Below are positions 25,802-57,772 of a stretch of DNA of 64,000 nt, in pieces. Position numbers and translations under genes: made by a program. The notes beneath the pieces are model-generated. The model did no database searches. It was not told the origin of the DNA and saw only the letters and a list, made by a program, of their open reading frames with translations. Position 1 is the stretch's first letter. Each line of letters starts with the position of its first letter. Source of the DNA: Rhodothalassiaceae bacterium (GTDB lineage: Bacteria; Pseudomonadota; Alphaproteobacteria; Sphingomonadales; Rhodothalassiaceae); assembly GCA_026004935.1 (NCBI GenBank), contig BPKC01000001.1, positions 1,775,491-1,839,490 of the forward strand, given 5' to 3'.

Positions 25802-26905
25802 GCCGGCGGGTGACGCGAAGCAGTGTGCCGGCGGGTGACACTCTCCTCTTTTCGTCATTCGCCGCGAAGGCGGCGAATCCAGCCGGCGGTGACGACAGCT
25901 CCTACGCCTGTGGTGGGCTCCGCCGTCCGCTGGATCCGCCGATCAAGTCGGCGGATGACGAGAAGGGGGCTGGACCCGCCGGTCGAGCCGGCGGGTGATG
26001 CGAAGCTGTGTGCCGGCGGGTGACGAGGGGGGAGCGCACGGGCGGTGCCGCCTTCCCCGACGCGTCGTTCGCCGGCTTGACCGGCGAACCCATGAGGCGG
26101 TCGTCGTATCCCCGGCGCAAGAGACCGTCTTCGCCTTCGGCTGAACAAGCCGGTCTAGCCGGCGGGCGACGCTTTTTTTCCTCGTCATTCGCCGCGAAGG
26201 CGGCGAATCCAGCCGGCGGTGACGACAGCTCCTACGCCTGTGGTGGGCTCCGCCGTCCGCTGGATCCGCCGATCAAGTCGGCGGATGACGAGGAGAGGGA
26301 ATGGACACCCCGGTCGAGCCGGCGGGTGACGAGGGGGGAGCGCACGGGCGGTGCCGCCTTCCCCGACGCGTCGTTCGCCGGCTTGACCGGCGAACCCATG
26401 AGGCGGCGGTGACCATCCCGGCTTTGGCGGTTGGCCCTGCCGCCCGTTGGATCCGCCGATCAAGTCGGCGGATGACGAGAAGGGGGCTGGACCCGCCGGT
26501 CGAGCCGGCGGGTGACGAGGGGGAGCGCACGGGCGGTGCCGCCTTCCCCGACGCGTCGTTCGCCGGTTTGACCGGCGAACCCATGAGGCGGCGGTGACCA
26601 TCCCGGCTTTGACGGTTGGCCCTGCCGCCCGCTGGATCCGCCGATCAAGTCGGCGGATGACGAGAAGGGGGCTGGACCCGCCGGTCGAGCCGGCGGATGA
26701 CGAGGGGGGAGCGCACGGGCGGTGCCGCCTTCCCCGACGCGTCGTTCGCCGGCTTGACCGGCGAACCCATGAGGCGGCGGTGACCATCCCGGCTTTGGCG
26801 GTTGGCCCTGCCGCCCGCTGGATCCGCCGATCAAGTCGGCGGATGACGAGAAGGGAGCTGGACCCGCCGGTCGAGCCGGCGGGTGACGAAGAGAGAGTGA
26901 GGGCG
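25802..26905. repeat. hairpin repeat array 3 with ~185-bp tandem unit
   Basis: The largest array, in the gap between the convergent M16 and desaturase genes. A 185-186-bp unit recurs from 26338, 26523 and 26709, with an earlier related copy near 26030. Each has a GTTCGCCGGCTTGACCGGCGAAC hairpin, a GATCCGCCGATCAAGTCGGCGGAT-type hairpin and an ACCCGCCGGTCGAGCCGGCGGGT-type hairpin in alternating orientation. A second unit with a TTCGCCGCGAAGGCGGCGAA stem occurs twice (near 25855 and 26187). No genes. Confidence 0.92.
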
Positions 26906-53613: not shown

Positions 53614-54044
53614 TCTTGATTCTCCTATGGAAATACCGGCGTACCCCCGGGTGTTTGCCGCTTCGGTCGAGGTTCCTGCCGCTTTCTGCGTGTGTTGCAG
53701 GCCTCGGCCGGTTCCGATGCCGACGCGCACATCGGGCGGCAGGGCCGCGGCGGTGCGGGCGGGCGCCATCCGCGGATTGCCCGCCATTTTCTCTCTCGAC
53801 CCCGCCATCGGGCCTTGCCTCGGGCCGCCTTGCCCCCTATATGGCGCGCACGGGGCGCGCGGTGCGCGTCCGGTGGATCTGTTCGCAAGATTGGCGCACT
53901 GCTCCGGCACCCCCGGGGGGTGCGTTTCGCATCAGGAGGACCGCGGCGTCCGGAGATGGGGCGGCGGCGATCCGGCGGCGAAACACCATCCATCGCGCCA
54001 GAGCGAACGCTTTCATTGCTGGTTTGCGGAAGGGAGGCGGGCCC

Positions 54045-54506
54045 ATGCGACCCACTCTTGCCCAAATCGGGGTGAAAGCCGTGGAAGCTCGGCTGCCCCA
54101 GGCACGTGAGAACGACGGCGCCGCGGCGGCGGCGAACGACCATTTCGTCGAGCGCAACGGCCTGCGCTATGCGGGCACCCATCTGATCCTCGATCTGTGG
54201 GAGGCCGAACGCCTCGACGACCCCGAGCTGATGCGCAGCGTTCTCGAGCGCGCGGTCGAGGCCGCGGGCGCGACGCTGCTGCACATCCATCTCCACCGCT
54301 TCGGCGACGGCGGCGGCGTATCGGGGGTGGCGGTGCTCGCGGAAAGCCACATCTCGGTCCACACCTGGCCCGAGCGGCGCTTTGCGGCCTTCGACGTGTT
54401 CATGTGCGGGAGCGCGGACCCCTACGCCGTGATCCCGATTCTGAAGGAGGCCTTCCGGCCGCAGCGCATGACGGTGACGGAACACATGCGGGGGTGCCTC
54501 GGATGA
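54045..54506 (+). CDS. speD: S-adenosylmethionine decarboxylase proenzyme
   Basis: A 153-residue class 1B SpeD that makes decarboxylated SAM for spermidine synthesis. The self-cleavage site is ESHISVHTWPE, where Ser101 becomes the pyruvoyl cofactor. FDVFMCG and the HRFG region are family marks. It has ~30 extra N-terminal residues. The ATG at 54045 follows AAGGGAGG; a far-upstream TTG frame was rejected. It overlaps speE by ATGA. Confidence 0.93.
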   Translation: MRPTLAQIGVKAVEARLPQARENDGAAAAANDHFVERNGLRYAGTHLILDLWEAERLDDPELMRSVLERAVEAAGATLLHIHLHRFGDGGGVSGVAVLAESHISVHTWPERRFAAFDVFMCGSADPYAVIPILKEAFRPQRMTVTEHMRGCLG

Positions 54507-55426
54507 CACGGACCGACGCAAAGAACGAGGAGTGGTTCGAGGAGACGCTCTATTCGGCCCACTGGCGCCAGCGTCTGAAGGTCACCCGCACGCTCGCGCG
54601 CGGCGAGACCGCCTGGCAGAAGATCTGGCTGTTCGAGAACCCCTCCTGGGGCAAGGTGCTGGTGCTGGATGACGCCCTGCAGCTGACCACGGGAGACGAA
54701 TTCTCCTATCACGAGATGCTCGCGCATCCGCCCATCCTGGCCCACGGGCGCGCGCGCCATGTGGCGATCGTCGGCGGCGGCGACGGAGGAACGCTGCGCG
54801 AGGTCTGCCGGCATGCGGGCGTCGCGCGCGTGACGATGATGGAGCTCGATCCCGACGTCATTGCGTTTTCGAAGAAGCATCTGCCGGAGGTGAGCGGCGG
54901 CGCCTTCGATGATCCGCGCCTTGATCTCGTGATCGGGGATGCCGCCCGCTCCGTGGCCGCAGACGGGCCCGGCTTCGACGTCATCATCGTCGATTCGACG
55001 GACTGCTTCGGCCCCGGCGAGGTGCTCTTCGGCGAGGCCTTCTATGCGGCCTGCCGGCGCCGGCTCAATCCCGGCGGCATCCTCGTCACCCAGCTCGGCA
55101 ATCCGGCCATCGACGGCTTCGTGATGGAAAAGGCGCTCGCAAACCAGGCCCGGGCGGGATTTGCGGATGTGCGCATCTATCTGACGGTGGTGCCGACCTA
55201 CATCGGCGGGCATCTGGCCGTCGGCTGGGCGAGCGACGATCCGGCCGTCTACGACGTGCCGCTCGATGCGCTGCGGGAGCGCCCGGTGCCGGAGGGTCTG
55301 CGCTACTACTCGCCCGAGATCCACGCCGCCGCGCGGGTGCTGCCGCCCTGGCTCGGCGAGCTGGTGGCGCGCAGCCTGGCGGGCGCCCGTGCCGGCTCCG
55401 ATGCCGCCTCCGCATCCGCGGACTGA
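54503..55426 (+). CDS. speE: spermidine synthase
   Basis: A 307-residue aminopropyltransferase that makes spermidine from putrescine and decarboxylated SAM. The SAM-binding GGGDGGTLREV, the MELDPDVI acidic loop and the DVIIVDSTD catalytic segment (Asp near residue 165) are present. The C-terminal ~20 residues are Ala/Ser rich. Translationally coupled to speD, its direct supplier. Confidence 0.95.
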   Translation: MTRTDAKNEEWFEETLYSAHWRQRLKVTRTLARGETAWQKIWLFENPSWGKVLVLDDALQLTTGDEFSYHEMLAHPPILAHGRARHVAIVGGGDGGTLREVCRHAGVARVTMMELDPDVIAFSKKHLPEVSGGAFDDPRLDLVIGDAARSVAADGPGFDVIIVDSTDCFGPGEVLFGEAFYAACRRRLNPGGILVTQLGNPAIDGFVMEKALANQARAGFADVRIYLTVVPTYIGGHLAVGWASDDPAVYDVPLDALRERPVPEGLRYYSPEIHAAARVLPPWLGELVARSLAGARAGSDAASASAD

Positions 55427-55599
55427 GCCCCGCGCCGCGCATCTTCGCCGCCGGGCGGCCCGACCGGCGGGTCCGTTCCCTCTCCCTCGTCACCCGCCGG
55501 CTCGACCGGCGGGTCCAGCCGGCGGCGGAGCAAACCCCGGCGCGGGCTTCCGTCACGCCCGGCGGCTGGATTCGCCGCTTTCGCGGCGAATGACGATTC

Positions 55600-55635
55600 A
55601 ATGATCAGTGATCAGTTATCGGTGATCGGGGACCG
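55600..55635. repeat. heptanucleotide tandem repeat tract
   Basis: Four to five 7-bp units (TGATCAG, TGATCAG, TTATCGG, TGATCGG) inside array 6. Confidence 0.65.
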
Positions 55636-55782
55636 GCTTGACGGGCGTCACCGGCCGCCCCTCTCTAATCGTCACCCGCCGACTTGATCGGCGGGTCCAG
55701 CGCGAGAGGGGGCCGCTCCCTTGGGCTGGGTGCTGTCACCACCGCTTCATGGGTTCGCCGGTCAAGCCGGCGAACGACGATT

Positions 55783-55814
55783 CAGTGATCAGTCATCGGT
55801 CATCAGTCATCGGC
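55783..55814. repeat. heptanucleotide tandem repeat tract
   Basis: Four units (TGATCAG, TCATCGG, TCATCAG, TCATCGG) inside array 6. Confidence 0.7.
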
Positions 55815-56187
55815 ACACCTCCACAACGAGCGTCACCCCGCCGGTGCGCACCCCCCCAAGTCGTCACCCGCCGGCTTGACCGGCGGGTCCAGCGGAAGGC
55901 GGAGCCAACCTTGGCGTGGGCTTCCGTCACGCCCGGCGGATGGATTCGCCGCTTTCGCGGCGAATGACGAGAAAAAAAAGGGCGTCACCCACCGGCATCC
56001 TCCCTTCGTCACCCGCCGGCTCGACCGGCGGGTCCAGCGCGAGAGGGGGCCGCTCCCTTGGGCTGGGTGCTGTCACCACCGCCTCATGGGTTCGCCGGTC
56101 AAGCCGGCGAACGACGCGTAAAGGGGAGCGTCACCCGCCGCTTCATGAGGCGCGGGGAAAAGCATTCTTGCGCGGGCGAGAAATTTC

Positions 56188-56217
56188 TTGACGCGAAGGG
56201 GGCGGATCCGGTATCAA
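56188..56217 (+). promoter_or_regulatory. promoter of the SAM-II/hom transcript
   Basis: TTGACG (56188-56193), an 18-bp spacer and TATCAA (56212-56217). The expected start near 56224 places the riboswitch at the very 5' end of the RNA. Confidence 0.55.
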
Positions 56218-56232
56218 AGCGTCCGCTGGACA

Positions 56233-56285
56233 AGCGCCGATTTGAGACCACAGCTTGCGGGCGCTCTAACAAATGCCGCTAAAGC
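56233..56285 (+). ncRNA. SAM-II riboswitch aptamer
   Basis: A compact H-type pseudoknot candidate. P1 is AGCGCC (56233-56238) with GGCGCT (56260-56265). The loop starts GATTTGA and ends GCTTGC before the 3' arm. The 3' tail has TAACAAATGCCGCTAAAG. These match the SAM-II (metA) consensus GCGC-GATTT...TTGCAAGCGC...AAATG..GCTAAA found before methionine genes in Alphaproteobacteria. It would sense S-adenosylmethionine and lower expression of the homoserine dehydrogenase downstream. Confidence 0.82.
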
Positions 56286-56287
56286 GT

Positions 56288-56318
56288 GGAAGAAAAAGTC
56301 TCCCGCCTTTTTTCTTCC
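56288..56318 (+). promoter_or_regulatory. A/U-rich hairpin next to the SAM-II aptamer
   Basis: GGAAGAAAAAG (56288-56298) pairs with CTTTTTTCTTCC (56307-56318) with one bulged base. It starts three bases after the aptamer. It could be part of the expression platform or a weak terminator, though it is not GC-rich. Confidence 0.5.
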
Positions 56319-56410
56319 CTCGCTCGGTGAACCCCGCATGCGCCTCGTGAAGCGGCGGTCTCTTCGCGCTTGCGATCCGGCGGAACGCAGACGTGAAGAG
56401 GAAAGGACCG

Positions 56411-57772
56411 ATGTCTCTCAAACCGCAGTTCGTCACCTTCTCGGAGCGCGGGCTCAAAAGCCCCGCCGCAGCGCGTCGCCTGGTGCGCGTGGCCTACAGG
56501 GCCTGGCGCGAGGGCCGGCAGACGATCGCGCTGATCCGGACGACCATGCGGGAGATCGAGACGATTATTGCGGGGTTCACGGATATCGGCATTCCGACGA
56601 CGACGCTGACACCGGCGGCCGTCGTCTCCCGTCCGGCGCGGCACGTGCGCGAGGCGCTCGCCGCGGGCGCAGGCGTCGTGGTGCTGCCGCTCTCCGGCGG
56701 GCCGTACTGGCAGGAGCAGGTGGTCGGCGCCCTGCGCTACAGCCTCGACCTGCCGGCGCCGCGCGATCTGGACCGCGACGGGGCAGGGGGGCTCGATGCC
56801 CCCGCGCCGGCCGCACCGGTCAAGGTCGCGCTGCTCGGCTGCGGGGCGGTCGGCAGTGCCGTGCTTGCGGCGCTGCTGGACGAGCCGCGGCATGTCGCGG
56901 TCGCAGCGGTCATGGCCCGCGATCTGGCGCGTCACCGCGCGCGCTTTCCGGGCGTGCGTTTCGTTCGCACACTGGATGAACTTGCGGCCGCAAGTCCCGA
57001 CATCTTCATCGATTTGGGCAGCCGCGAGGCACCGAGCGAGGAGGCGATGCGGCGCTTTCTTACGGCCGGGGTGCCGGTGATCACGGCCAACAAGCAGGTG
57101 CTGGCGGCCTCCTTCGACGCGCTGCGCGATGCGGCGCGGCGGGGGAGCGCGGCGCTGCTTCATTCGGCCGCCGTCGGCGGCAGCGCACCGGTGCTGGAGC
57201 TCGCGCGGCGCCTGGCTGGCGACGGGATCACGGCCGTGAGCGGCATCGTCAACGGCACGGTCAACTTCGTGCTGAGCCGCCTGGCCGACGGGGCGAGCTT
57301 CGAGGAGGCGCTGGATGCCGCGCGGGCGGCCGGGCTCGCGGAGGCCGACCCCAGCGACGATCTCGAAGGTCACGACGCCGCGGCCAAGGCCGTGCTCGTG
57401 GCGCACGCCGCCTTCGGCCAGGCGCCCGATGCCGCGCCCGGTCGCGAGACGCTGGGCGAGGCGCTGGCGCGGCTGCCGGATGCCGTGCGTGCGGGCCGGG
57501 TAAAGCAGGTGACCGAGGTCCGCCGCACGCCGGACGGCCGCATCGAGGCGTCGGTGCGCTTTCTCGCGCTGCCGGACGGCCATGCGCTGCTGCGTTGCCG
57601 GGACGCGGAGAACGCGGCGGAGGTGCGGCTTGCGGACGGCAGCCGGCATGCGGTCTTCGGGCTCGGCGCCGGCGGCGTGCCCACGGCGGCGGCGGTGCTG
57701 GCGGATCTGGAGGATCTGCTGATCGCGCGCGCCGGGGCGGCAGCGGCACCGCGGGCGGTCGCGAACGGCTGA
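56411..57772 (+). CDS. hom: homoserine dehydrogenase with unusual N-terminal domain
   Basis: A 453-residue enzyme. Residues ~140-430 form a homoserine dehydrogenase: NAD-site VKVALLGCGAVGSAVL, TANKQVL, SGIVNGTVNFVLS, and the catalytic LAEADPSDDLEGHDAAAK. It makes homoserine for methionine and threonine. The first ~120 residues are not a known ACT domain and lack aspartokinase ATP motifs; they may be a decayed kinase fold. The usual C-terminal ACT domain is missing. A SAM-II riboswitch upstream ties it to methionine control. The ATG at 56411 has GGA-type pairing upstream. Confidence 0.85.
   Translation: MSLKPQFVTFSERGLKSPAAARRLVRVAYRAWREGRQTIALIRTTMREIETIIAGFTDIGIPTTTLTPAAVVSRPARHVREALAAGAGVVVLPLSGGPYWQEQVVGALRYSLDLPAPRDLDRDGAGGLDAPAPAAPVKVALLGCGAVGSAVLAALLDEPRHVAVAAVMARDLARHRARFPGVRFVRTLDELAAASPDIFIDLGSREAPSEEAMRRFLTAGVPVITANKQVLAASFDALRDAARRGSAALLHSAAVGGSAPVLELARRLAGDGITAVSGIVNGTVNFVLSRLADGASFEEALDAARAAGLAEADPSDDLEGHDAAAKAVLVAHAAFGQAPDAAPGRETLGEALARLPDAVRAGRVKQVTEVRRTPDGRIEASVRFLALPDGHALLRCRDAENAAEVRLADGSRHAVFGLGAGGVPTAAAVLADLEDLLIARAGAAAAPRAVANG

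Follow-up and report, generated by a model that had tools for sequence, protein, structure and literature searches.

The leader of the homoserine dehydrogenase gene hom in the window (the whole stretch of 64,000 nucleotides analysed here) raises the question of how a SAM-II aptamer could control a start codon located 121 nt after its P2 pseudoknot (ATG at 56411). An earlier sequence-only reading had started from the premise that SAM-II acts at ribosome access near the start codon. The solved examples, which hide the ribosome-binding site within P2, agree with this premise, and a 2024 review treats SAM-II as a case of direct occlusion (PMC10907184). It does not extend to the alpha- and beta-proteobacteria, where SAM-II is most often linked to predicted transcription terminators (Barrick and Breaker 2007, PMC2258182), so that the distance to the ATG is not odd by itself. 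The oddity of the leader is the absence of a terminator together with the presence of a sequence complementary to the aptamer (the anti-aptamer), the latter not being part of the earlier reading. The elements of the leader are the following.

56188-56217, + strand: predicted promoter, with -35 TTGACG at 56188-56193, -10-like TATCAA at 56212-56217 and an 18-nt spacer
56224-56232, + strand: 5' overhang ahead of P1, exceeding that of most relatives by about 8 nt (predicted start site)
56233-56289, + strand: SAM-II aptamer (P1, L1 and P2 pseudoknot), from the RF00521 match and the invariant core common to relatives
56233-56238/56260-56265, + strand: P1 stem (AGCGCC/GGCGCU)
56239-56245, + strand: conserved loop GATTTGA (GAUUUGA in the RNA)
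56248-56251/56286-56289, + strand: P2 pseudoknot (CCAC/GUGG)
56252-56258, + strand: conserved AGCTTGC (AGCUUGC in the RNA)
56279-56284, + strand: conserved CTAAAG (CUAAAG in the RNA)
56288-56318, + strand, with stem base 56283-56322: A/U hairpin with the conserved loop UCUCCCGCC, -15.2 kcal/mol
56340-56382, + strand: anti-aptamer, with 35 predicted pairs to the complementary segment 56224-56264
56360-56368/56392-56400, + strand: alternative helix adjoining the Shine-Dalgarno, which folds with the aptamer masked or P1 enforced
56399-56407, + strand: Shine-Dalgarno-like AGGAAAGGA
56411-57772, + strand: homoserine dehydrogenase gene hom, whose product belongs to the aspartokinase-fusion clade and has no C-terminal ACT tail

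The Rfam SAM-II model RF00521 matched positions 56224-56299 of the + strand with 28.2 bits, at an E-value of 1.4e-4 over the 351 nt searched and of 2.7e-4 in a scan of the whole alphaproteobacterial genome (2.91 Mb). The Rfam match suggested as a check for the proposed 53-nt aptamer was found and is statistically significant, but its score falls under the gathering score of RF00521 (the curated cut-off, 36 bits), and a default Rfam scan does not report the aptamer for this reason. The structure line of RF00521 holds no P2 pairs, so that the intact P2 of the window earned no score at all. The P1 stem and the conserved core of SAM-II (GAUUUG, UUGC and CUAAAG) are present in the window, and so is P2, in which the P1 loop pairs with the 3' strand (4/4 pairs). 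This register of P2 was the best-pairing of the seven tried on 45 SAM-II copies (68% of cells versus 34-51%, n=4). The context is also that of a SAM-II, with a methionine/SAM-pathway gene (hom) downstream and a predicted promoter just before P1. The identity of a SAM-V riboswitch was ruled out, SAM-V being absent among the Rfam matches with E up to 5. No second (tandem) aptamer was matched in the spacer by RF00521 or by R1, our own model made from five sequences. Judged by its sequence, the window aptamer is a genuine SAM-II riboswitch, which presumably binds SAM. Its type and its target gene are ordinary and not new.

The single congener compared, G004, carries the same element before an orthologous hom (Hom 62% identical). 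This element scored 21.7 bits with RF00521 and 76.8 bits with R1; the window and G004 both sit in the training set of R1, which makes their R1 scores circular. The R1 search gave matches in 161 of 385 genomes of the class at E 0.01 or better, and 29 listed loci besides the window scored 65.2-76.6 bits. Twenty of those 29 loci (among L096-L124) were scanned with RF00521: the primary match passed the gathering score in 13, was short of it in six and was unlisted in one, making 7/20 below the cut-off or unlisted. The SAM-II sub-type of the window is common in the class and partly hidden by the Rfam cut-off, as a result of which the SAM regulons of alphaproteobacteria are probably under-counted. 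The genome of the window holds a second SAM-II (71.7 bits), located before another gene and with a terminator-like hairpin. More than one SAM-II-like copy per locus was observed at L105, L107, L110, L116, L117 and L121, and the segment after the UUGC motif was shorter in one copy at L107, L116, L117 and L121. The genes that follow the window's aptamer sub-type in two further genomes, G007 and G012, encode fusions of aspartokinase and homoserine dehydrogenase (586 and 576 aa, respectively). At these two loci (L017 and L018) SAM-II and SAM-I are placed back to back, on opposite strands of one intergenic region, with SAM-I (RF00162) scores of 84.0 and 82.3 bits; Barrick and Breaker (2007, PMC2258182) counted zero species with both SAM-I and SAM-II.

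The gene downstream was correctly named from the sequence alone. The ORF that follows the RF00521 match is a homoserine dehydrogenase by Pfam (PF00742, E 5e-34; PF03447, E 4e-17), and PF00742 has no other match in the genome. In a tree, the window Hom grouped with the aspartokinase-homoserine dehydrogenase fusion clade (MetL/ThrA-like) with 99/99 support; rows L044 and L045 of this tree are wrong domain picks and are to be disregarded, both proteins being aspartokinase-Hom fusions by their domains. The window Hom is devoid of the approximately 105-aa C-terminal tail of ordinary Hom. An intact amino-acid kinase domain was not found, residues 1-130 matching no Pfam family. The N-terminal segment of about 130 aa (window 56411-56800) is 72% identical between the window genome and the congener and shows a weak likeness to the aspartokinase profile (hhalign P 5e-4, probability 31%). 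The five best PDB matches of its predicted fold were aspartate kinases, the best at E 2e-3 and none reaching 1e-3; the predicted structure of the full Hom was poor (mean pLDDT 53.2) and was not used. From these profile and fold comparisons, the N-terminal 120-130 aa look like a shrunken aspartokinase domain, and may correspond to a kinase domain reduced to a regulatory or structural relic. Just upstream of hom, itself predicted to be SAM-regulated, lie the genes for S-adenosylmethionine decarboxylase and spermidine synthase (PF02675 and PF01564, window 53616-55426). The segment between speE and the hom promoter (55427-56190) contains long interspersed palindrome-rich repeats, with copies of 137 and 110 nt at 91-92%. 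A 186-bp tandem array that resembles these repeats in composition (26252-26889, 3.4 copies, 96%) gives weak R1 matches on the minus strand.

The promoter was the weaker part of the earlier proposal. The TTGACG and TATCAA motifs are in place and the spacing of TTGAC is near-fixed in relatives (in 22 of the 34 related leaders it precedes P1 by 35-41 nt), but a strict sigma-70 scan returned 0 sites. The distance from TTGAC to P1 is 46 nt in the window and 45 nt in G004, so that the transcript should carry about 8 extra nucleotides at its predicted 5' end. In the pair list of the predicted SAM-free fold, this overhang (56224-56232) pairs with 56371-56382.

A U-rich hairpin had also been proposed to control hom. 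The A/U hairpin is indeed stable (z -3.96, 0/200 shuffles), and it is mutually exclusive with P2 since its 5' arm contains the P2 3' strand. Its candidacy as an intrinsic terminator was rejected because the U-run forms part of the stem and no U-rich stretch comes after it. Among 34 related leaders, a U-run hairpin after the aptamer with a stability of at least -11 kcal/mol was accepted by the script in 25, a count that omits the hairpin of G012, whose interrupted U-run was read from the fold instead. The same script found none in the window leader, and only a -4.6 kcal/mol candidate in G004. Transcription attenuation could still operate without a canonical terminator, for example in a Rho-dependent manner, with the hairpin or the long rod of the free fold shaping the access of Rho. 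This explanation would be in line with the terminators of most related leaders, with those that accompany the SAM-II of aspartokinase-Hom genes in two other families and with the terminator-like hairpin at the second SAM-II of the window's genome. We consider it unlikely, as none of the stable hairpins in the window leader is followed by a U-run and the leader prefix ending at the U-run has no terminator fold. The suggestion that hairpin and spacer form a non-standard platform gained support, the terminator being absent and the anti-aptamer being predicted to pair with the aptamer.

In the window as well as in G004, the predicted transcript begins with 42 nt to which the sequence before the ATG is approximately reverse-complementary. 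In the pair list of the predicted fold, the partners of the anti-aptamer are the 5' overhang, P1, L1 and the P1 3' strand. The 42-nt 5' half of the window was compared with dinucleotide shuffles of 56319-56410 (E -54.8, 35 pairs, z -5.11, 1/2000), and the equivalent test in G004 gave E -57.0 and 41 pairs, with z -6.26 and 0/2000. Shuffling the 5' half instead gave z values of -4.72 and -5.93, respectively. In a first control design, 28 other leaders ranged from z -2.20 to 1.65; in a second one, 35 other SAM-II leaders had a mean of 0.13 and a lowest value of -3.41 (L123). Neither design included four of the 34 leaders (L097, L099, L111 and L112), which lie at a contig end or are near-duplicates. 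No conserved upstream ORF was seen between the aptamer and the ATG on reading the aligned leaders.

The two genomes have diverged unequally along the leader. Identity is 55/58 in the aptamer (56233-56290) and 28/31 in the hairpin (56288-56318), versus 20/32 in the distal element and 13/26 just before the ATG. In drift simulations without indels, in which one distal region was changed at random, the energy observed in the other genome was reached in 0-3 of 2000 trials at 30-40% divergence (each of four runs), and in 29 and 0 of 2000 at 20% divergence. The complementarity is kept far above drift despite the distal divergence, and therefore seems to be maintained by selection, in a small sample of two related genomes. 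These two genomes are the only ones in which the anti-aptamer is predicted. Alternatively, the rod might serve mRNA stability or processing, or the leader might be a riboswitch in decay that is locked in the rod form. The great stability of the rod (free MFE -80.4) speaks for this explanation. Decay is disfavoured because the aptamer is the best-conserved part of the leader, and we hold the explanation as a whole to be rather improbable.

We propose that the leader is a SAM-II riboswitch which lowers Hom synthesis at high SAM, acting on translation through a bistable fold, a model that we hold to be somewhat more likely than not. In the absence of SAM, the segment 56340-56382 would pair with the first 41 nt or so of the transcript, thereby unzipping P1 along with L1. 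The A/U hairpin would take the P2 3' strand, and the Shine-Dalgarno would be left relatively open. When present, SAM would bind the newly made aptamer ahead of transcription of the anti-aptamer, and P1 and P2 would hold. The anti-aptamer, left single, would then pair next to the Shine-Dalgarno, and translation would fall. The helix 56360-56368/56392-56400 is available for this in the predicted folds once the anti-aptamer is released. The accessibility of the Shine-Dalgarno was calculated as the mean unpaired value, free or with the aptamer masked (which mimics the SAM-bound state), for five 3' ends. It was 0.45-0.84 free versus 0.17-0.19 masked in G004, and 0.37-0.85 versus 0.31-0.51 in the window, where the change was small with 40 nt of coding sequence included (0.37 versus 0.31). 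With P2 and SAM left uncounted, the free fold gained 23 and 17 kcal/mol over the P1-enforced one. This makes a kinetic switch likelier, in which SAM has to be bound by the time the anti-aptamer appears. Against the model, SAM may be unable to compete at equilibrium with an anti-aptamer fold of such stability, so that a kinetic switch has to be assumed. Also against it, P1 was not favoured at several lengths when the window aptamer was folded freely and in isolation, pseudoknots being outside the folding model.

Translation could also be controlled from a standby site as in Sinorhizobium metA, the Shine-Dalgarno-like GUGGAAG of the P2 strand loading the ribosome for the distant ATG and SAM hiding GUGGAAG. 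Scheuer et al. (2022, PMC9373788) provide the precedent, a SAM-II translation control with the start 74 nt downstream. In the window, however, the ATG is preceded by a Shine-Dalgarno of its own, the P2 strand makes a poor Shine-Dalgarno and the anti-aptamer would be left unexplained, which makes a standby site improbable. That the complementarity arose by chance or from a GC-rich background is hardly credible, for although the leader is GC-rich and the control leader L123 reached z -3.41, the dinucleotide shuffles, the 35 control leaders and the persistence in two diverged genomes all speak against it.

The kinetic translational switch can be formulated more precisely as a SAM-II with a built-in competitor, in which an anti-aptamer to the first 42 nt or so, including the overhang, and a hairpin capturing the P2 strand would together form a long-range device, possibly originating from an inverted duplication of the aptamer. 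For this full formulation we see the chances as evenly balanced. The expression platform, as predicted, is well supported and apparently of a new kind. No description of an anti-aptamer SAM-II was found in the literature searched (the figures of Scheuer et al. and most subscription papers being outside its scope), and keyword searches returned nothing on long-range anti-Shine-Dalgarno control. If true, the model would add a third way for SAM-II, beside the terminator and the ribosome site inside the pseudoknot. It would also provide a clean bistable RNA for folding studies, SAM-II being among the smallest riboswitches.

The window resembles the SAM-II of RF00521 (SAM_alpha, the metA motif of Corbino et al. 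2005, PMC1273637) in its P1, GAUUUG loop, P2 and CUAAAG, in the promoter just upstream and in the methionine-pathway gene downstream. In that report the promoter is found just before P1 and terminators are frequent. The window differs from a typical RF00521 member by its score under the cut-off, the lack of a terminator, the Shine-Dalgarno outside P2 and the long complementary partner downstream. As a SAM-II target hom is not new, since SAM_alpha control of hom-metXC has been described in Hyphomonadaceae (Leyn et al. 2014, PMC4239095); a keyword search under SAM-II with homoserine dehydrogenase returned nothing. The Hyphomonadaceae have, like the window, a SAM-II before hom, there in an operon with metXC, whereas in the window the next Pfam-checked gene, mutL, is in an ORF on the strand opposite to hom. 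The metA SAM-II of Sinorhizobium meliloti shares with the window, as modelled, a control of translation at a distance; its Shine-Dalgarno is within the aptamer, and the text of that paper, figures aside, does not mention an anti-aptamer. A further parallel is provided by G007 and G012, where the same aptamer sub-type precedes a related gene, the aspartokinase-Hom fusion. A U-run hairpin follows the aptamer in these two genomes, whereas the window has the predicted anti-aptamer in its place.
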